41,282 bases of DNA. It comes from Candidatus Sulfopaludibacter sp. SbA3. Its GTDB lineage: Bacteria; Acidobacteriota; Vicinamibacteria; Vicinamibacterales; UBA2999. The notes beneath the pieces are model-generated. The model saw nothing but the letters and a program-made list of their open reading frames with translations, made no database searches and had not been told where the DNA came from. Location of the stretch: the NCBI GenBank assembly GCA_945903265.1, contig CAMDNQ010000026.1, forward strand, positions 1 to 41,282, in the 5' to 3' direction. Positions 1 to 33,731 of this stretch are shown here, one piece after another; the stretch's first letter is position 1, and every line of letters begins with the position of its first letter. Made by a program: the position numbers and the translations under genes.

Positions 1-791
1 ATCCAGGGCTTGAACTGCTCTTCGCGTTCGAGACGGCCGGCGACGGTCTCCGCCTGGCGGCGGTCTTCGAACTTGCCAACGCGCACCCTAAAGTTGGCGC
101 CGGCGGTCGTCACGAACGCCGGATAGCCCTTGCCGCTCAGACGCGCGGCAATGCGCTCCGCTTCCGCGCGCTGACGCGTCGCGGCTACCTGCACGACAAA
201 CCCCGTTCCGCCTGGCTCGGTGAGTGACGTTGCCGCGACCGCCGCCACGGGTGCCGCAGCGGGAGCCGGCGCCGGGCGCGCGACCGGGGGCGGCACCGGA
301 AGCGGCGCAGGAGCCAGCGCTGCGGCCGCCGGTTTCGGGGCCGGCGTCAGAGCCGGCTTTGGAGCAGGCGCCGGAGCAGGCGTGGGAGCCGCAGCCACGG
401 CGGATGGCGGACGCAGAGCCGGCGCTGGCGCAGGCGTCGGAGAAGGCTTCGGAGCAGGCGCCGTCGCCACGGCCGTTTCCGCAAGCGGTGCGAGCGTTTC
501 AGCCGGGGGATTCGGGTCTTCGAGGAGCGACGGATAGCTCAGATCTTCGGCGGCGGTCAGCGACTGCGTGCCCGTTCCCGTGCTTGCTGTGGATGATGGC
601 GGAGGAACGGAGGCAGTAGGGTCGATCGGTGAGGACTCGCCGGCATCGGCGATGAGCGCCCGGGACGGGACCCCGCGGCCCACCATCACCCCGCAGAGGA
701 AGATCACGACAGCCACCACGGTGCCTGCCATGAAGAGAAATACGAGCTGTTTCCCGTTTAACTGGATCTCGTGAAATCCCTCATCCTGCAT
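1..791 (-). CDS. SPOR-domain inner-membrane protein, 3' end cut by window
   Basis: Translating the minus strand from the ATG at 791 gives an open frame that runs off the window. The start MQDEGFHEIQLNGKQ is followed by a membrane segment at about residues 15-38 (LVFLFMAGTVVAVVIFLCG). A long Pro/Ala-rich linker (about residues 95-180) comes next. The visible C-terminus is a SPOR domain: FVVQVAATRQRAEAERIAAR, then GYPAFVT and FRVRVGKFEDRRQAE. SPOR domains bind denuded peptidoglycan at the division septum, so this is probably a bitopic periplasmic protein of the FtsN/DedD layout. The linker explains the Gly/Ala-rich reading frames on the opposite strand. The last few residues lie outside the window. 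The layout is clear; the exact role in division is inferred. Confidence 0.85.
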   Translation of the reverse strand, partial: MQDEGFHEIQLNGKQLVFLFMAGTVVAVVIFLCGVMVGRGVPSRALIADAGESSPIDPTASVPPPSSTASTGTGTQSLTAAEDLSYPSLLEDPNPPAETLAPLAETAVATAPAPKPSPTPAPAPALRPPSAVAAAPTPAPAPAPKPALTPAPKPAAAALAPAPLPVPPPVARPAPAPAAAPVAAVAATSLTEPGGTGFVVQVAATRQRAEAERIAARLSGKGYPAFVTTAGANFRVRVGKFEDRRQAETVAGRLEREEQFKPW

Positions 792-840
792 GAGTTATGG
801 CGCCGATAGTAGCACGATTGCCGAGTCCGGAGCACCACGC

Positions 841-2367
841 CTACTTCAACGAGTCGAGCAGCTCCTTCGCCGCCGCGTTGGCCGGATCGCTCCAGACGGC
901 AATCGTCAGCGCATCGACAGCATCCTGCTGCCGGCCCGTCCGAAGGTAGATGCGTCCGAGCAGCAGATGCGCCTCGCTCTCGTACGGCGAGAGGAAGAGC
1001 GTCCGCCGCAGCTCGCCCACCGCCTCCTCGTCTCGCGCGTCGGCGAACAGCCGGCGCCCGCGGTCCAGATGGAACGCCGCGACCGCCCGTTGATCGCTCT
1101 GCTCCGCCTTGACGACCGCCGCATCCACCCTGAGGGAGAGCGGGACGTCGAGCTCCGTCCGGAGCCGCTCGAGGCCGCGTGGCACCGTGTTGGCGCCCGG
1201 CTGCTTGGCTTCCCACTCGGCGTAGGTCGACGACAGCCGGCGGGCCAGCTCTTTCTCGCGCGCCGCTTCGGCCGCCTGACCTGACGCCTGCAGCACCACC
1301 CCCAGCACGTAATGCGCCTCGTCGTCGGCCGGATTTCTGCGGACGGCTTCGCGCAGCCAGTAGGTGGCGCCCTGCGGATCCTTGTCCAGCCAGTAGGCGT
1401 ACCCGAGATTGAAGAAGAGATCCGGGTCGCTCGCGTCCAGCGTCACCGCTTCGCCGAAGAATGAGACCGCACGGCCCCCGGTTGCGCCTGGCGGCCGGCG
1501 CAGCTGCGCGACGCCCATGTTGTTGAGCAGCGCCGGGTCGGGCGCGAGGCGGTTGAGAACGCTGTATTCGGCGAATGCGGCCTGCTGCTGCCCCAGATGC
1601 AGCATCGAGGTGGCGGCCAGGAACCGTGCGTCGCGCGACAGGCGATGCTCGGGCGGCACTTTGGCGATGACGTCGAGTGCGTCCGAATGCTCGCCCAGGT
1701 CGGTGTGCACTTCCCACAGGGCGAGCCGCGCGCGATGAAACGTCGGCGCCAGCTTGAGCGCCTGCGTCAGAAAGGTCACGCGTGCTTCGAACGCTTCCGC
1801 GAGGAGGCCCTTGATGTACTGCTCGAATGCCGGCAGGGACGGATAGATCTGCGCGAGCTGTTCCGCCGAGATCCCGGCATTCGGCGGCGCGATGCGCCGC
1901 GCCAGGCGGCCGTAAATATTCAGGATGTCGGTGAGCGGGCCCCGCTCGGAGAGCTCGGGCGTCATGCGGCCGGTGTCGAGGCGGATGACGCGGGCGCGGA
2001 CCACGAGCTCCTCGCCCTGCAGTTCATACGCCCCGGTTACGACGTCGATGGCACCCACGACCTGCCCGACGCGAATCACCGTGGCATGGCTGAGGGCGGC
2101 CACGGGAGGCACGCGCAGCCGCTCGAAGGCGCGAAGCCGATCCTCCCGCCTGATGGCCGGAGCACCGAGAGCGACCAGGTCGTCGGTGAGCAGGACCGCC
2201 GACGCTTCGCTCAGCCAGTAGATGCGCGGCTCGCCGGTCGCGTTCTCGAAAGGGACGACGAGATAGAGCGCTGAGGGCGCCGCCTGCACTGCCGGCGGAA
2301 CGGTTTGCGTCGATGCCTCCCGCGCGACAAGGAGCAGGCACAGGACCGCAAGGACGCCACGCGTCAT
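841..2367 (-). CDS. Exported TPR-repeat protein with CsgG/FlgO-like N-terminal domain
   Basis: 508 aa from the ATG at 2367, which overlaps the upstream stop as ATGA; longer starts inside the upstream gene are less likely. The N-terminus MTRGVLAVLCLLLVAREAST is a signal peptide. Residues of about 30-150 (LYLVVPFENATGEPRIYWLS, then VIRVGQVVGAIDVVTGAYEL) resemble the CsgG/FlgO-type domain often placed before TPRs in Acidobacteria. The rest is TPR helices, including FNLGYAYWLDKDPQGATYWL and AHLLLGRIYLRTGRQQDAVD. Role is probably periplasmic protein-protein scaffolding; no catalytic motif is visible. It is translationally coupled to the V4R-like gene and ends 49 bp before the SPOR gene, which points the same way. 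Confidence 0.8.
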   Translation of the reverse strand: MTRGVLAVLCLLLVAREASTQTVPPAVQAAPSALYLVVPFENATGEPRIYWLSEASAVLLTDDLVALGAPAIRREDRLRAFERLRVPPVAALSHATVIRVGQVVGAIDVVTGAYELQGEELVVRARVIRLDTGRMTPELSERGPLTDILNIYGRLARRIAPPNAGISAEQLAQIYPSLPAFEQYIKGLLAEAFEARVTFLTQALKLAPTFHRARLALWEVHTDLGEHSDALDVIAKVPPEHRLSRDARFLAATSMLHLGQQQAAFAEYSVLNRLAPDPALLNNMGVAQLRRPPGATGGRAVSFFGEAVTLDASDPDLFFNLGYAYWLDKDPQGATYWLREAVRRNPADDEAHYVLGVVLQASGQAAEAAREKELARRLSSTYAEWEAKQPGANTVPRGLERLRTELDVPLSLRVDAAVVKAEQSDQRAVAAFHLDRGRRLFADARDEEAVGELRRTLFLSPYESEAHLLLGRIYLRTGRQQDAVDALTIAVWSDPANAAAKELLDSLK

Positions 2368-2954
2368 CCCGCCGCTCCAGCCGGACGCACGAGCACCACC
2401 ATCTGGCATTGGGCCGCCCCTCCTCGTGTTGCGCGGCAGTGCTCCATGTCGACGTCAACCTCGAGGTCGAACAGGTGCATCAACCGCCGGATTCCCGCTG
2501 CGTAGAACTCGCAGAGCGGCTGCTCCACGCGGTCGCGCACCTCGCAGAAGATCGATCCGCGAATGTCGACTGCGCCCCTTCCGCGCCGCCATTTCCCAAT
2601 CGCGCGGCTCCCGGTATAGGTCCGGCGGATCATGGCGCGCGTGAGCCGCATCACCAGGTGCACACGAATGACGGTCGGCATCGCGAGAATCCAGCGGCGG
2701 CGGAGCGGCGACATGTCCAGGACGCTCCACTCCGCGGCGTACTCGCCGGCGCGCGCCGTGACGAGGCGATAGGGCTCCCCTTCCTGGCGCAGAAAGCTCA
2801 GCACCGCGGCGAGCGGCGCCAGTCCAATCTTGCCGTCGCGCAGTCCGGTCGGATGCAGCCACGCCTCGTAGAACTCGAGCCGTGTCGGCAGCAGATCGGC
2901 GATCGCCTGATGGAGGCTCGCCACGAGGAGCCGCCCGATGCCCGCGTCATTCAT
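2364..2954 (-). CDS. V4R/heme-NO-binding-fold-like sensor protein
   Basis: 196 aa, MNDAGIGRLLVASLHQAIAD onward. I do not recognise a named family with certainty. The C-terminal part (about 140-190) has the pattern of V4R (4-vinyl reductase) small-molecule domains: FCEVRDRVEQPLCEFYAAG, then HLFDLEVDVDMEHCRATRGG and CQMVVLV, with cysteines at the usual places. Known V4R domains bind hydrophobic ligands or metals, so a cytoplasmic ligand sensor is a reasonable inference. No signal peptide or DNA-binding domain is seen. It is the first gene of a coupled pair (ATGA overlap with the TPR gene) and starts only 13 bp from the divergent mobA frame. Confidence 0.55.
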   Translation of the reverse strand: MNDAGIGRLLVASLHQAIADLLPTRLEFYEAWLHPTGLRDGKIGLAPLAAVLSFLRQEGEPYRLVTARAGEYAAEWSVLDMSPLRRRWILAMPTVIRVHLVMRLTRAMIRRTYTGSRAIGKWRRGRGAVDIRGSIFCEVRDRVEQPLCEFYAAGIRRLMHLFDLEVDVDMEHCRATRGGAAQCQMVVLVRPAGAAG

Positions 2955-2956
2955 GG

Positions 2957-2962
2957 TTTAAT
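2957..2962 (+). promoter_or_regulatory. -10-like hexamer TTTAAT before mobA
   Basis: TTTAAT lies 5 nt before the ATT at 2968 that best fits as the mobA start. The spacing is like other -10/start pairs in this window and would give a leaderless mRNA. No clear -35 is visible. Confidence 0.35.
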
Positions 2963-2967
2963 GGGTT

Positions 2968-3573
2968 ATTTCCTGGACAGCAGCCATCCTTGCCGGCGGT
3001 CGGGCGCGACGGCTGGGCGGCGTCGACAAGAGCGCGCTGGTCATCGGTTCCGCATCGATCCTCGATCGGCAGTTGTCCCTGCTGCGAGCGCTGACCCCGC
3101 ACATTCTGATCGTCACGAGCGACGGATCGCGCGTCGAGCGGCGCGATCGCAGTCACGGCCAGCATGTCGGCGTGGCGATCGATCGCGTGGCCGGGGCGGG
3201 GGCACTCGGCGGCATTTATACGGCGCTCATGGACGCGCCCACGGAGCAGGTCATCGTGATTGGGTGTGACATGCCGTTCCTGACGACGCCGTTCCTCGCG
3301 TTTCTCGCCGCGCAGGGAGCCGATGTCGATGTCGCGGTGCCGGCTGACGAACGAGGCCGTCATCCGCTGTGCGCCTCGTATCTCCGCCGGACGGCCCCGC
3401 ACTTTCGCTCGTGCATCGACGCGGGACAGCTGCGCGTCGGCGATGCGCTCGCCGCCCTGGCCGTGCGCGAGCTGGGAGCCGATGAGCTGGCGCCGTTCAA
3501 TTCCGATGGCCGGTTGCTCGTCAACGTGAACACGCCCGACGACTACGCGCGCGCGCAATCATCCGGCAGTTGA
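2968..3573 (+). CDS. mobA: Molybdenum cofactor guanylyltransferase (MobA-like), unusual start
   Basis: Transfers GMP from GTP to molybdopterin to make the MGD form of the cofactor, in the cytoplasm. The frame reads SWTAAILAGGRARRLGGVDK, the nucleotide-binding loop LAGGxxxRxGxxDK of the NTP-transferase fold. VIVIGCDMPFLTTPFL supplies the metal-binding Asp region, and VNVNTPDDYARA is the usual C-terminal NTPDD motif. Length from ATT is 201 aa, normal for MobA. The oddity is the start: after the in-frame stop at 2959-2961 there is no ATG, GTG or TTG before the essential LAGG loop. The first such codon, TTG at 3073, would delete the loop. Initiation at ATT 2968, or a 1-nt assembly error (an ATG lies at 2961 in another frame), are the options. 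argS follows after 30 bp. Confidence 0.8.
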   Translation: MSWTAAILAGGRARRLGGVDKSALVIGSASILDRQLSLLRALTPHILIVTSDGSRVERRDRSHGQHVGVAIDRVAGAGALGGIYTALMDAPTEQVIVIGCDMPFLTTPFLAFLAAQGADVDVAVPADERGRHPLCASYLRRTAPHFRSCIDAGQLRVGDALAALAVRELGADELAPFNSDGRLLVNVNTPDDYARAQSSGS

Positions 3574-3603
3574 TCAGCGTACCGCAGCAGGATACCAATC
3601 GCA

Positions 3604-5634
3604 ATGATTCTGCCCGTTCATGACCGCCTCCGCGGCCACCTCACCGGTGTGCTGCGCGAGCTGTACGCGCTCGACGAGACCTCCGTGCCGTCGATCGCGC
3701 TCGAATATCCGCCGAACCGGACGCTCGGCGACCTCGGCACGCCCGTCGCCTTCGAGCTGGCCCGCCGGCTCCGCAAGGCGCCGCGCGCCATCGCCCAGGA
3801 GATTGCCGGTGCCTTCGGCACGCTCGAGGGCATTACCCAGGTCGGCGCCGCTCCGAACGGTTATCTCAATTTCTTTCTCGAGCGCCGGCCCTTTCTGATC
3901 GACCGCATCGCCGGCCGTTACCCCACCGCGCCGGCGCCGGCAGGCAAGGCGATCGTCGAGCACACGGCAATCAATCCAAACAAGGCGGCCCACGTGGGCC
4001 ACCTGAGGAACTCCGCGCTCGGAGACACGCTCGTCCGCGTGCTGCGCTTCCGCGGCATTCCCGTCGAAGTACAGAACTACATCGACGACACCGGCGTGCA
4101 GGTCGCGGATGTCATCGTCGGCTTCAGGGTGATCGAGCAGAAGACCCTCGAACAGATCCAGGAGATCGCCGATTCCACGCGGTTCGACTACTACTGCTGG
4201 GACCTCTACTCCCGCGTCACCCAGTGGTACGACGGCGACAAGGATCGCCTGAAGCATCGCGCGGATACGCTGCACGAGATCGAGCATGGCGGCACGGAAG
4301 CCGCCGCGATTGGCGCGTTCGTCGCCGACCGGATTGTCCGGACGCACCTCCGGACGATGGCGCGGATGAACGTCGACTACGACCTGCTGACGTGGGAGGG
4401 CGACATCCTGCGGCTGAAATTCTGGGCGCAGGCGTTCGACGTGCTCAAGGCAAGCGGCGCCGTCTACCTGCAGACCGAAGGACGGCTCGCAGGCTGCTGG
4501 GTGATGCCGATCCAGGAGGACGAGGAGGCAACTCCCAAGACGCAACTCCCAACTCCCAAGGAGAAGACGGAGAAATCGGAAGAGGCGGAGGAACCGGAGG
4601 AAGAGCGCGAGAAAGTCATTGTGCGCTCCAATGGCGTCGTCACCTATGTCGGCAAGGACATCGCTTACCAGTTCTGGAAACTGGGACTGCTGGGGCGGGA
4701 TTTCTGTTATCGGGTCTTCACGACTCGCCCGCACGGTCCGTTGTGGGCGACATGCGCATCCGACGGCGAGAACGACCATCCGGACTTCGGCGGCGCCGCG
4801 TACGTCTATAACGTCATCGACGTGCGGCAGTCGTACCTGCAGAAACTGCTGAAGCAGGCGCTCGTCGCCGCGGCCCACCCGGAGGCGGCGGATCGATCGC
4901 ACCACTTCTCGTACGAAATGGTCACCCTGTCGCACGCGACGGCGCGCGAGCTCGGGTACACACCCAGTGAGGACGATGCGAAGCGGCCGTTCGTCGAGGT
5001 GTCAGGCCGCAAGGGACTCGGCGTCAAGGCCGACGACCTGCTCGATACGGTCATCCGGAAAGCGGGCAGCGAAGTAGCGTCGCGCAACCCCGAGCTTTCG
5101 GGCGAGGAGCGCGACCGCATCGCGCAGATGATTGGCATCGCCGCGGTGCGCTACTTTCTCATCAAGTTCTCGCGCGGCAAGATGATCGTGTTCGACCTGG
5201 ACGAGGCGTTGAGCTTCGAGGGAGAAAGCGGTCCGTACATCCAGTATGCCGTCGTGCGCGCGAACAACATCTTCCAGAAGCTGAAGCAGCGCGACGGGAC
5301 TGACGAAGCCACGCTGCGTGCGGCGCTCAACGACGTTCCGGCGGGTGAACTGGCCGGAGACAACGGGTCGCACGAGCTGTGGGAACTGGTGCTGGAGGCG
5401 TCGCGCCTGGATGAAGTCGTCGATCAGGTGATCCGATCGCTCGAATTCTCGGTCCTGGCGAAATACGCGTTTTCGCTGGCGCAGGCGTTCAACGCGTTCT
5501 ACCATCGGTCACCCATCCTCAACGAAGAGCGCGATGACGTCCGTCGCTGGCGGGCCGCGGCGGTCATTTACCTGCGGGATCAGCTGACGCGCGCGCTCGA
5601 TCTGATGGGAGTCTCGGTTCCTCCACGCATGTAA
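3604..5634 (+). CDS. argS: Arginyl-tRNA synthetase with a low-complexity insertion
   Basis: Class I synthetase that charges tRNA-Arg. The N-terminal Add1 domain is at about 1-105. The HIGH box is HVGHLRNSALGD at about residue 127, followed by YIDDTGVQVADVIVGF. The KMSKS-equivalent loop is degenerate (VSGRKGLGVKADDL), as in many ArgRS. The anticodon-binding DALR domain contains the GPYIQYAVVRANNIFQKLK region, and the protein ends LMGVSVPPRM. At 676 aa it is longer than typical bacterial ArgRS (about 550-600). Part of the excess is a charged insert at about residues 305-338 (PKEKTEKSEEAEEPEEE), whose first half is encoded by heptanucleotide repeats. The flanking catalytic sequence resumes intact (VIVRSNGVVTYVGKDIAYQF), so the insert is probably a tolerated surface loop. 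An AGGA lies before the ATG. Confidence 0.97.
   Translation: MILPVHDRLRGHLTGVLRELYALDETSVPSIALEYPPNRTLGDLGTPVAFELARRLRKAPRAIAQEIAGAFGTLEGITQVGAAPNGYLNFFLERRPFLIDRIAGRYPTAPAPAGKAIVEHTAINPNKAAHVGHLRNSALGDTLVRVLRFRGIPVEVQNYIDDTGVQVADVIVGFRVIEQKTLEQIQEIADSTRFDYYCWDLYSRVTQWYDGDKDRLKHRADTLHEIEHGGTEAAAIGAFVADRIVRTHLRTMARMNVDYDLLTWEGDILRLKFWAQAFDVLKASGAVYLQTEGRLAGCWVMPIQEDEEATPKTQLPTPKEKTEKSEEAEEPEEEREKVIVRSNGVVTYVGKDIAYQFWKLGLLGRDFCYRVFTTRPHGPLWATCASDGENDHPDFGGAAYVYNVIDVRQSYLQKLLKQALVAAAHPEAADRSHHFSYEMVTLSHATARELGYTPSEDDAKRPFVEVSGRKGLGVKADDLLDTVIRKAGSEVASRNPELSGEERDRIAQMIGIAAVRYFLIKFSRGKMIVFDLDEALSFEGESGPYIQYAVVRANNIFQKLKQRDGTDEATLRAALNDVPAGELAGDNGSHELWELVLEASRLDEVVDQVIRSLEFSVLAKYAFSLAQAFNAFYHRSPILNEERDDVRRWRAAAVIYLRDQLTRALDLMGVSVPPRM
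4530..4557 (+). repeat. Heptanucleotide tandem array (AACTCCC) inside argS
   Basis: Four units in register: AACTCCC, AAGACGC, AACTCCC, AACTCCC. The array encodes the start of the extra ArgRS loop and is followed by a purine-rich stretch (4558-4614) encoding Lys/Glu. It resembles short tandemly repeated heptamers known from cyanobacteria, but lies within an essential gene. Confidence 0.75.
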
Positions 5635-30688: not shown

Positions 30689-31435
30689 CTACCAGCAGAC
30701 GCCGGACGCAGTTCTGAGATACGCATTGTCCGACATCTGGTTCAACATGAAATCGGCGACGTCGGCTCGAGAGATCCGCACCGTCCACAGAAGGCTTCCA
30801 ACGATGTGGCCGTGGCGATAGCCGCCACGTTTCGCGCCATCTGTCAGGGCGCCTGGCCTCACCACGACCCAGTCAACATTGCTCGCCGCGATCAGTCGTT
30901 CCTGCCGCGTCTTATCCCAGAAGTAGAACGGCAGAATGACGGGGATCACGAAGAAGGTGTAATAGAGACCCATCCGTCCGGCACTGGCCCCGATGCCGAG
31001 GCTGGTCTCGCAGACGAAGCGCCGGACGCCATGAGTTTCCATGGCGCGCAGCACGTTCCGTGTTCCCTCCGACAGCGTACGAGTTGGACGAAAGAACTGC
31101 TTGTGCCCGAGCGCAGAGACCACCGCATCCTGACCGCGCACCGCCGCTTCAACCGACGGGTAGTCGAGCACATTGCCCCGCAGGACAGTGAGTCGCGGAT
31201 GTTCGACGTGAAGCGCCGACGGATCACGGGCCAGCGCCGTCACCACGTGGCCACGTGCAAGGGCCTGCTCGACGAGCTGACGACCCGTTCCGCCGGTCGC
31301 TCCCACGATCAACACTCGGGTGGGCCGTTCTGCCGGCGTCGGAGCCACGCTGCCCGCAATCGACGGAAGTCCCCGACGTCGAAGTCCGACTGAAAGCGCC
31401 ATCGCGTACAGCAAGAACAGCAGGAACAGTTTCAT
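30689..31435 (-). CDS. NAD(P)-binding (SDR/NmrA-like) protein with N-terminal membrane segment
   Basis: 248 aa from ATG 31435, overlapping the upstream stop as ATGA. MKLFLLFLLYAMALSVGL is a membrane anchor or signal; then RVLIVGATGGTGRQLVEQAL is the atypical-SDR Rossmann motif. Further on are VTALARDPSALHVEHPRL, VRGQDAVVSALGHKQFFRP, GVRRFVCETSLGIGAS and VDWVVVRPGALTDGAKRGG. No YxxxK is evident, as in other NmrA/SDR_a5-type proteins. A membrane helix in front of this fold is unusual. Coupled to the membrane methyltransferase. Converges on the beta-propeller operon (14-bp gap). Confidence 0.85.
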   Translation of the reverse strand: MKLFLLFLLYAMALSVGLRRRGLPSIAGSVAPTPAERPTRVLIVGATGGTGRQLVEQALARGHVVTALARDPSALHVEHPRLTVLRGNVLDYPSVEAAVRGQDAVVSALGHKQFFRPTRTLSEGTRNVLRAMETHGVRRFVCETSLGIGASAGRMGLYYTFFVIPVILPFYFWDKTRQERLIAASNVDWVVVRPGALTDGAKRGGYRHGHIVGSLLWTVRISRADVADFMLNQMSDNAYLRTASGVCW

Positions 31436-32046
31436 AGTCGAGCAATCGACGTCGCTCTCGTTCGCGGCAAAAAGCGCCCGGTCCGCTGCATGTACGCCCG
31501 ATAGGCCTCGCCAAAGCGAGCCAACAGCTTCTCTTCTTCGGTGTGCGTTCGGACGACGAGGAGAGCAAAGGCTAGTCCGCCGGTCAGCAGGAGGAACCAA
31601 TTCGCCGCAATCACAGAAACCGCCATCATGAGCAGCGCAGCGGAGTCGTAGAGCGGATGCCGGACCCACCGATAGGGGCCATGTATGACCAGCGCGTGCT
31701 GTTGCCGTGTGACCACCGTATCCGTCAGGTTCTTCCCGAGGCAGAGGAACGTCCATACCAGCAGCCCGCAGGCCATCGCGATCATGCCGACTCCTGTCCA
31801 CCTCAGCCATGCTGGCAGGGACACTGAAGACCAGGCCAGCCAGCCAGGATCGACCATCCAGGCTATCAGCCCCAGCCAGAAAGCCATGCCCACAGGCCGT
31901 AGCGTCGCCAGAATGAACAGGCCCTCCTGCGATCGATCGAGTTTCTCGCGCGTCGCTTGTGACCTGAGCCTGTGGTAAATGCCGATTGGAAGGATCAAGA
32001 GAAAGACAACAATCAGTACCGCCCGGAAAGTGTGTTCGTGGTTCAT
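31432..32046 (-). CDS. Isoprenylcysteine-methyltransferase-like membrane protein
   Basis: 204 aa with about five hydrophobic helices (AVLIVVFLLILPIGIYHRL, PVGMAFWLGLIAWMV, GVGMIAMACGLLVWTFLCL, LLMMAVSVIAANWFLLLTGG). The ICMT/PEMT-type SAM signature follows: VIHGPYRWVRHPLYDSAALL, and EEEKLLARFGEAYRAYMQRT at the end. It should methylate a lipid or small hydrophobic substrate in the inner membrane; the substrate is not evident. First of two coupled genes, starting about 58 bp beyond the attC-like site, so it lies just outside the cassette. Confidence 0.85.
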   Translation of the reverse strand: MNHEHTFRAVLIVVFLLILPIGIYHRLRSQATREKLDRSQEGLFILATLRPVGMAFWLGLIAWMVDPGWLAWSSVSLPAWLRWTGVGMIAMACGLLVWTFLCLGKNLTDTVVTRQQHALVIHGPYRWVRHPLYDSAALLMMAVSVIAANWFLLLTGGLAFALLVVRTHTEEEKLLARFGEAYRAYMQRTGRFLPRTRATSIARL

Positions 32047-32104
32047 GGGCGATATGACTTTGCCGCGCTGGCTATTACTCGCATCCGTTCTGTCGTTCGT
32101 GTGC

Positions 32105-32177
32105 GCTTAGCGTGGCGCTTCAGCCGCGCCGGCCGATGATGCGATCGGCGGGCGTAGGCTGCAAGCGAATGTTAGGC
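32105..32177 (-). other. attC-like recombination site of an integron gene cassette
   Basis: Read on the minus strand: R'' GCCTAAC (32177-32171), L'' CGCTTGCAGCC (32167-32157), a central hairpin with GCCGAT/ATCGGC arms (32032 excluded; arms 32132-32137 and 32144-32149), L' GGCTGAAGCG (32125-32116) and R' GCTAAGC (32111-32105). L'' and L' are perfectly complementary except for one extra G in L'' (32162), the extrahelical base that marks true attC sites. The cassette gene's TAA lies inside R'', as is usual. R' deviates from GTTRRRY at its second base. Confidence 0.82.
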
Positions 32178-32915
32178 GACGCATTGGCGGGACCGCAGAA
32201 TCCGTTGATTGCGAGCCTCGAGGAACGCGGTCGTGGCCTCACGGTACTCTCGGTACTCATCCGCGGTGGACGGAACCGGGGAACGGCTAAAGTCGCTGAA
32301 TGGCGCTGCAATCTTGACGGCGGAGCTATCCGGACCAACTAGGTCTTGAAGCAGAAAGAACTCCACGTAGCCCCGGAAGTCCCGAAACAGGCCAAAGAAG
32401 TCGGAGTACCTAGCCAGCACGTCAGCGAGGGGACTGTTGCCACCGGAGTAGTGACGGCGTATGCATTCGAGCGTCAGGTCAAAACGATCTGCGATAAGTC
32501 CCTCGCAGCCCCGTGCCTGATTGATCGTCCACTTGCGATCGATTTGGAATCCCGGAAACACCATCATTCCGCCAATGGTGTAGCTGATAGCATCAAAGGC
32601 CTCGAGTGCGTCGGCAGAAGTTAAGCTCAGGATGTCTGGTCGGTAGTTGTAGGTGGGAATCACTGAGTCGCTCGACAAGAAGAACTCTCCCGCGACCGAC
32701 TTGTGGTGGAGATAGCACCCAGGTGTCAGGTCGTCGAGAACAAAGACCAAGCCGCTGGGCAACGGCTTACTCCAGAGGATCCTGTGATACCGGCGGAGAG
32801 TCTTGCTGTGGGTATCGGGATCCCTTCCCTTGGAGGTATCCCGCCTGACGTCAAATGTGACGTCGATGTCTGTGCTCAACCCTCGATTCATATCCCGCTT
32901 GCACTCGGTATCCAT
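32172..32915 (-). CDS. Cassette-borne hypothetical protein (DUF6994-like)
   Basis: 247 aa from ATG 32915; the TAA lies inside the attC R'' core. The sequence RGLSTDIDVTFDVRRDTSKG, DPDTHSKTLRRYHRILWSKP, LPSGLVFVLDDLTPGCYLHH and GEFFLSSDSVIPTYN resembles, as I recall, the DUF6994 family found on mobile DNA. Function unknown. No signal peptide; probably cytoplasmic and alpha/beta. Conserved Asp/His/Tyr-rich patches (RYHRILW, CYLHHKS) might form an active site, but this is speculative. By eye the gene is less G+C-rich than its neighbours, with many TTG/AAT codons, in keeping with transfer. The only gene in the cassette. Confidence 0.85.
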   Translation of the reverse strand: MDTECKRDMNRGLSTDIDVTFDVRRDTSKGRDPDTHSKTLRRYHRILWSKPLPSGLVFVLDDLTPGCYLHHKSVAGEFFLSSDSVIPTYNYRPDILSLTSADALEAFDAISYTIGGMMVFPGFQIDRKWTINQARGCEGLIADRFDLTLECIRRHYSGGNSPLADVLARYSDFFGLFRDFRGYVEFFLLQDLVGPDSSAVKIAAPFSDFSRSPVPSTADEYREYREATTAFLEARNQRILRSRQCVA

Positions 32916-32929
32916 GTTGGCGTCCGCTC

Positions 32930-32936
32930 GCCTAAC
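32930..32936 (-). other. Upstream cassette boundary core site GTTAGGC
   Basis: GTTAGGC (GTTRRRY) lies 14 nt before the cassette gene ATG on the minus strand. It is the exact reverse complement of R'' in the attC at the other end. That is expected of a real cassette, whose first bases (TTAGGC) rebuild R' in the circular form. Confidence 0.7.
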
Positions 32937-33161
32937 GAATAGTAGGCGGATCTGGATATTCCAATACGCCTGCGGTGGCCGCAGTGTAGCGCCGAGGGCG
33001 GAGACCTTCCAATACCTCGGAACTCGCTCAGGAAGCGTGCCCTGGCGCCGAATCGCAGGAACGAAGCGGACCGGAATATGCGGATCTGCATAGCAGGAAA
33101 TGGCACTTCGGCTGTCGCTGCATAACCGGCGCAGCGCCGGCGAGCCGCGGCCAGCAGGGCG
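32937..33161. other. Non-coding flank of the cassette with short direct repeats
   Basis: 225 bp without a convincing gene; a 72-codon minus-strand frame runs through it but has no family features. GCGGATCTG occurs at 32946-32954 and 33080-33088, and TTCCAATAC occurs twice. No second attC, attI or integrase gene can be seen. If a promoter for the cassette gene exists it should lie here. Confidence 0.45.
33126..33140. terminator. GC-rich hairpin downstream of the NUDIX gene
   Basis: CCGGCGC-A-GCGCCGG, followed on the minus strand by TTAT, 22 nt beyond the NUDIX stop. Terminator-like, weakly. Confidence 0.4.
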
Positions 33162-33731
33162 TCACGGTCGGTCCTGAATCGACTCGAGTAACGCCAGGAA
33201 CTCCGCTAGCACCATTGCGGTCGCGCCCCAGACCTGTTCGCCGTCGATGCAGAAGCACGGGACTTCCATCTCCTCGACGCGGCCGTCAACTTCTCTTGTC
33301 CGATGCGCGATCTGGACGATCGAGGTGTCGCGGAGCGATTCGAGCGGCAATTCAATCAAACGCGCCACTTCCCACTCGTCTGGACGGAACTGCGGACGCG
33401 CGTCCGTGACACCGATGACAGGATGGAGCAGAAATCCGCTGATAGGTATCCGTACCGGCGTCAACTGGCCGACGACGCGGACTGCGGCCGGATCGACGCC
33501 GACCTCCTCGGCCGCTTCGCGCAGTGCGGCCGCCTCAATCGACTCGCCGGCGTCCACTCGCCCACCCGGGAGCGACACCTGGCCGGTGTGGTGGCGCAGG
33601 TCGGACCCGCGAACCGTCAGCGGAATATGCCAGTCGCCGGCGTGGGGATACAGGAGGAGCAGCGCCGCGGCGTCGCGGCCGCCATCCGGAAAGCGCGAGG
33701 GGTCCCACGGCATGCGCGGGTTCGGCGACAT
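33162..33731 (-). CDS. NUDIX hydrolase, CoA pyrophosphatase (NudL/YeaB) type
   Basis: 189 aa from ATG 33731. The NUDIX box is GGRVDAGESIEAAALREAAEEVG, with the REAAEEVG core, preceded by LRHHTGQVSLPGG, the UPF0035 pattern of CoA pyrophosphatases that cleave CoA to phosphopantetheine and 3',5'-ADP. Upstream of the ATG the same frame reads ETELRTAIARLPGSEAQLR, which looks like the family N-terminus, but no ATG/GTG/TTG is available before the frame enters hicA. The natural start may therefore be lost or non-standard. It follows the hicA stop by 74 bp. Confidence 0.9.
   Translation of the reverse strand: MSPNPRMPWDPSRFPDGGRDAAALLLLYPHAGDWHIPLTVRGSDLRHHTGQVSLPGGRVDAGESIEAAALREAAEEVGVDPAAVRVVGQLTPVRIPISGFLLHPVIGVTDARPQFRPDEWEVARLIELPLESLRDTSIVQIAHRTREVDGRVEEMEVPCFCIDGEQVWGATAMVLAEFLALLESIQDRP

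Follow-up and report, generated by a model that had tools for sequence, protein, structure and literature searches.

A DUF6994 integron cassette behind a conserved attI leader: a likely integrase-less integron remnant in Candidatus Sulfopaludibacter sp. SbA3

Integron cassettes that stand without an integrase are usually explained by integron degradation or by insertion at scattered sites. Such a cassette is found on contig CAMDNQ010000026.1 of Candidatus Sulfopaludibacter sp. SbA3 (assembly GCA_945903265.1), of which the stretch of 41,282 nt analysed here is hereafter called the window, and the question is by which of these routes it came to its place. The original prediction held that one circular cassette had been inserted at a secondary GNT-type site of the chromosome. 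Here we explore the flanks of the cassette, the missing integrase gene (intI) and related loci in other genomes, and we consider it very likely that the window contains an integrase-less integron remnant that has kept its attI, one DUF6994 cassette and possibly a second cassette, that of an ICMT-like gene. Features are listed in Table 1.

Table 1. Features of the window and attC-like sites on other contigs of the same genome
Feature	Position	Strand	Basis or score
NAD(P)-binding protein, start overlaps ICMT stop; host gene or part of a second unit	30689..31435	-	
ICMT-like gene, possible second cassette with attC lost	31432..32046	-	profile match, comparison with G037
attC, R'' GCCTAAC to R' GCTAAGC	32105..32177	-	covariance model, geometric scan, folding
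Cassette gene DUF6994 (PF22507), 247 aa	32172..32915	-	ORF and Pfam match
Junction core GTTAGGC, G|TTAGGC between attI and cassette	32930..32936	-	sequence reading
attI leader (attI and promoter-like element)	32937..33099	-	homology to C10 copy and leader family
TACACT, possible -10, 18 nt after TTGGAA	32983..32988	-	best conserved leader block
TTGGAA, possible -35 of cassette promoter	33007..33012	-	by eye
NUDIX hydrolase, host gene, stop near expected intI stop	33162..33731	-	profile match and reckoned position
attC-like	C17:756-839		52.6 bits
attC-like	C17:1957-2031		47.4 bits
attC-like	C17:3165-3260		18.4 bits
attC-like	C2:235796-235867		31.9 bits
attC-like, second C2 site			24.4 bits
attC-like, two adjacent C10 sites			19.5 and 19.6 bits

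On reading the sequence, the parts of the cassette are found on the minus strand as had been claimed. The ATG of the gene, at 32915, lies 14 nt past the GTTAGGC core, its TAA stop falls within GCCTAAC (32177-32171, minus), and from there an attC of 73 nt runs to R' GCTAAGC (32111-32105, minus), its arms CGCTTgCAGCC and GGCTGAAGCG pairing with one extrahelical G. An attC covariance model was made from 23 aligned attC of relatives, gathered near their intI genes by means of a geometric detector, and the window site was excluded from its building; because the detector demands a stem, the pairing statistics of this alignment are partly built in. The window attC scores 46.0 bits with this model (E about 1e-9, a rough value) versus 15.6 bits for the runner-up anywhere in the window. 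In a geometric scan of both strands of the window it was the sole match, with 0 matches in 20 Markov resamples. Its two strands fold as DNA at -20.2 and -22.4 kcal/mol (z -2.3 and -2.6), and 6/200 and 2/200 shuffles, respectively, folded as well. Searching 31.0-34.5 kb against Rfam at E ≤ 1 gave no match. The DUF6994 unit is a genuine integron cassette.

The cassette gene was assigned to DUF6994, which is described here after Pfam's published description (in part, PMC11701544), with 298.5 bits against a gathering cut-off of 27 (E 4.5e-89). The domain is present in one of the 43 genomes of the family, namely the present one, and exceeds the cut-off in two among 396 genomes sampled from the phylum, and therefore the cassette looks foreign to the lineage as far as this distribution tells. 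On mobile DNA DUF6994 was found in four plasmid records, one phage record and six loci of viral contigs, the flanks being inspected for three of the plasmids. The attC model R1 detected sites near DUF6994 at 3 of 87 loci elsewhere (E ≤ 1; L056, L059 and L081), one of which is partial. In L056, from Candidatus Chloroploca mongolica, DUF6994 (2913-3690) follows a GTTGGGC core and has its stop inside GCCTAAC, like in the window, and directly behind this stop the model finds no attC; judged by this arrangement, the gene may also move as a cassette outside the present phylum. In L047 (G390, 1340-2400) it is flanked on both sides by a copy of the 3' end of a gene resembling dienelactone hydrolase (named by eye), an arrangement that looks like insertion with duplication; no attC was found at this locus.

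To the left of the junction, about 190 nt match another place in the same genome, C10:59387-59572, with 73% identity (E 3.4e-23). The homology extends about 187 nt upstream of the junction and the similarity ends at G|TT, and the C10 copy precedes another cassette array. The alignment of both copies scores 185 versus a maximum of 60 in 200 shuffles. BLASTN of this leader against the collected loci matched only its own copies and C10; weak matches of the leader family were found in G001 and G018, each preceding a cassette with an attC (44.2 and 45.1 bits). A sequence-only leader model was made with these four copies (window, C10, G001 and G018) as seeds. It identified the leader at E ≤ 0.01 in 39 of 162 genomes of the order, a lower bound, as only some candidates per genome were scored and weaker matches fall outside the sample. 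In the control, another order of the phylum, a match was found in 4 of 119 genomes, none better than E 0.004.

Forty-five leader copies were examined, comprising those of 40 fetched regions plus C26 and C10 of the present genome as well as G001 and G018, with a second, weak match inside L322 excluded. In nine of them (9/41 when the four seeds are taken out) a complete or partial intI match is found upstream in the same orientation, with 12-342 nt between its end and the leader match; in G017 this intI is nearly full-length and the distance is 128 nt. Downstream, attC is found in 27 of the 36 copies that have at least 1.5 kb on that side. Of 41 copies whose junction was read, 34 have GTT at this point; L309, L324 and L337, whose matches stop short, and one of two L318 copies are not among the 41. 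For 13 of 14 pairs the leader homology breaks off somewhere from -11 to +8 relative to the junction, and for the remaining one at +15. The consensus of the leader ends as TATCGAGTTCRGCCGACTACTY|GTTRGGC and the window copy as TATCCAGATCCGCCTACTATTC|GTTAGGC. Since the family stands just downstream of intI in nine of 45 copies, we take the left flank to be attI. In many intI-bearing genomes of relatives intI is transcribed toward the array, and the window leader is, judged by its homology, the attI region of integrons of that orientation. An imperfect direct repeat of 16 nt (88%, 134 nt apart, 32943-32958 and 33077-33092) was seen at the two ends of the leader. A further side observation is that genome G469 has at least four closely related leaders (L318, 3501-6192, and also L299 and L332), two of which are about 2.5 kb apart, and that the L299 leader lies behind an intI with an internal gap.

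The leader also contains a promoter-like element (Table 1), which would drive expression of the first cassette from a position 68 nt before the start codon. A consensus promoter scan of 32000-33200 called no promoter. Selection to keep both promoter and cassettes is a plausible possibility.

These results bear directly on the proposed insertion of one cassette circle into an ordinary GNT site between the NUDIX and ICMT genes. Insertions at such attG sites are reportedly a published phenomenon, described by Loot et al. in 2024, and they would account for cassettes outside integrons; R' of the window, G|CTAAGC, departs from GTTRRRY, and the genome has no intI over the cut-off. Nevertheless, whereas attG are scattered secondary sites, the site in the window is attI, its flank being a leader found behind intI in nine of 45 copies and before the C10 array, rather than a sequence unrelated to attI. 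The departure of R' amounts to one base, and the ortholog of ICMT is a cassette gene in G037. We consider an attG-type event very improbable, and an ordinary chromosomal site on the left side was abandoned. The predicted empty site, queried with the right flank taken from 32105, was absent at five ICMT loci of relatives, where nothing scored above shuffles, and no near relative is among these loci. The genus contains only the present genome, and it counts against the remnant reading that the locus is found with intI, or empty, in no close genome.

The right side was thought to adjoin a neighbour that is not a cassette. Since R' is one base from GTTRRRY it is no proof of a chromosomal neighbour, and the ICMT ortholog of G037, 69% identical, is itself flanked by an attI of the C2 type and by an attC at its stop (36.3 bits); comparison of this attI with those of C2, G006 and G304 gave 0/500 shuffles against each. 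The start of the G037 cassette weakly resembles the window after R' at the same offset, 13/2000 shuffles and 11/2230 genomic pieces scoring as high, and the other four ICMT loci do not resemble the window sequence after R'. Behind the window ICMT no attC was found (best 11.4 bits); nor does any adjoin the gene at the other four loci, G036 having one on the opposite strand at a distance of about 1.5 kb. Taken together, we lean slightly towards ICMT being a second, decayed cassette. As separate observations, ICMT in L041 (G037, minus 4460-3586) is a single cassette between attI and attC with no intI in view, and in G035 a similar pair of ICMT and NAD(P)-binding genes is adjacent in reversed order.

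The absence of an integrase, noted from the window, extends to the entire genome: the intI profile TIGR02249 (cut-off 265 bits) has no match over cut-off in the assembly. The best matches are two proteins of 81 and 70 bits with the middle unmatched, which by context we read as XerD (C21) and XerC (C32); sub-cut-off matches of such kind also occur in 14 of 14 control genomes. These names, like those of TrmFO, peptide deformylase, D-Ala-D-Ala carboxypeptidase, dienelactone hydrolase and transposase, were given from translations and context. For the phylum, intI over cut-off was found in 113 of 396 genomes.

A profile search upstream of the window leader found nothing like intI. Likewise, 33 of the 45 leaders have no intI in at least 1 kb upstream (29 without the four seeds), and 20 of these 33 are followed by attC, 14 by one and six by two or more (16 leaders in total without the seeds). 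A more sensitive profile search identified intI traces at two of the 33, L303 and L313. Where intI is present beside leaders its state varies: it is nearly complete at L323 and L315, truncated, or interrupted by a contig end, at L308, L321 and L301, and has internal gaps or frame changes at L299, L317, L329 and L337. At L301, L308, L315, L317 and L321, by our own reckoning, some 54-75 nt separate the end of the intI match from the beginning of the leader model, a spacing that places the equivalent end in the window at about 33155; the NUDIX gene stops at 33162. At the NUDIX loci of 24 relatives the flanks contain no leader, and two weak attC-like matches were seen (22.3 and 17.7 bits).

That the cassette is solitary holds for the window, and fails for the genome, where the covariance model finds eight attC-like sites at four loci including the window, three of them below 20 bits. 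The left flank of the C2 array matches the attI of intI-bearing genomes G006 and G304 (0/200 shuffles each), and no intI lies beside this array. Between the window-type leader and the attI type of C2, G006 and G304 no relationship was detectable, the C10 piece being offset by two bases. A second attI type without intI supports, as far as the sequences go, the remnant picture. Some details of these loci are worth recording on their own. The C2 locus (L239, 229000-242000) has, at minus 7690-6025, an array of two cassettes at a G006/G304-type attI, the first cassette encoding a CAP12/Pycsar-type TIR protein (PDC-S35 in PADLOC). In the C10 locus (L240, 56000-64000), 3400-5800, a window-type leader is followed by an Abi-alpha protein and then by the candidate defence pair PDC-M34A/B, and at about 5752 there is what by eye looks like the truncated start of an attC-like site. 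Defence-like genes are present in the other cassette units at C2 and C10. On C17 (L238, 1-16000) the array, with three attC-like sites in 1-3260, meets a transposase-like frame at the contig end, and a toxin-antitoxin-like pair (named by eye) lies behind it on the opposite strand.

The finding of 33 intI-less leaders among 45 implies that loss of intI is very frequent or that leaders spread without it. If the latter were true, the leader, with attI and promoter, would spread over the chromosome as a unit and catch cassettes by IntI acting in trans, which agrees with the attC sites downstream of 20 of the 33 and with the neighbouring genes, which vary between leader copies. In the leader tree, leaders of the same genome form a clade in five of the 15 genomes with several rows, that of G028 joining an intI-bearing and an intI-less copy (support 0.99) and that of G469 four copies (0.992); the pair of our own genome has a support of 0.69 in this tree, which was built on short sequences. 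Such clades would be consistent with within-genome duplication. In the remaining ten of the 15, however, the copies are not sisters, broken intI copies and intI traces next to leaders point to decay in situ, no mechanism for moving the leader was seen, and the genome itself has no intI to act in trans. We hold such spreading to be unlikely.

Alternatively, an intI may exist that was left unassembled, the integrons of the genome being complete or served by it. A position in an assembly gap is possible because the draft consists of 45 contigs and the C17 array reaches a contig end, and the authors of IntegronFinder caution, in a passage of PMC9024848, that drafts overstate CALIN. The locus in the window is contiguous, though, with the NUDIX gene directly before the leader and nothing like intI upstream, and the assembly is 98.9% complete. 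A missed integrase thus appears distinctly unlikely.

Under the preferred reading, a remnant that retains attI, the ancestral integron would have had an intI transcribed toward attI and the array, like that of its relatives. By normal attI x attC recombination, an IntI would have cut attI at G|TT and integrated the DUF6994 circle at this point. Later intI would have been lost by deletion or decay, with the NUDIX gene, an intact host gene, now at its place, while expression of the first cassette from the retained promoter would continue. The attC is probably still usable by IntI supplied in trans; a passage of PMC9668308 says the same of CALIN cassettes.

In terms of known systems the unit is best filed as a SALIN that retains attI, SALIN being the term used in part of PMC12690207 for a single attC lacking integrase. 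Like SALIN and CALIN (as described in passages of PMC12690207 and PMC9024848), it has a cassette with an attC, recognised here by the model from relatives, and no intI nearby, but unlike these it keeps a conserved attI leader before the cassette. With one attC at the locus it stays below the default CALIN threshold of two attC (given in PMC9024848), and with attI in front of its cassette and no intI gene it is not a complete integron. Chromosomal integrons of Treponema, according to a portion of PMC3607928, have intI transcribed toward attI, and T. phagedenis has lost intI while attC sites remain; orientation in the intI-bearing relatives and the kind of loss are the same here, whereas several integrase-less units in a single genome and an attI sequence family across an order are particular to the present case. 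In archaeal integrons attI is placed immediately downstream of intI and is partly conserved, as stated in part of PMC9668308. Position and partial conservation are alike, while here we deal with a bacterial order and a locus where the integrase is missing. The unusual points are that attI has been retained in recognisable form and how many units of this kind the order contains. A literature search among openly licensed papers returned no title on integrase-less units retaining attI in this order.

Outside class 1 integrons attI is rarely sought, and IntegronFinder, by its authors' account in a section of PMC9024848, detects none there. Having attI as an order-wide sequence family separates the two usual explanations, degraded integron and scattered-site insertion, locus by locus, and reveals many integrase-less units of attI and cassette. 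Tentatively, and on the doubtful side, the orphan modules of attI and promoter across the order could serve integrase-independent expression and act as landing pads for an IntI encoded elsewhere. If so, one genome would carry a dispersed, multi-site integron rather than one array, each pad capturing one or few cassettes, with defence-like genes among them. This makes it possible to test if these units are dead or serve as pads for an IntI in trans, and if it is their promoter that preserves them.
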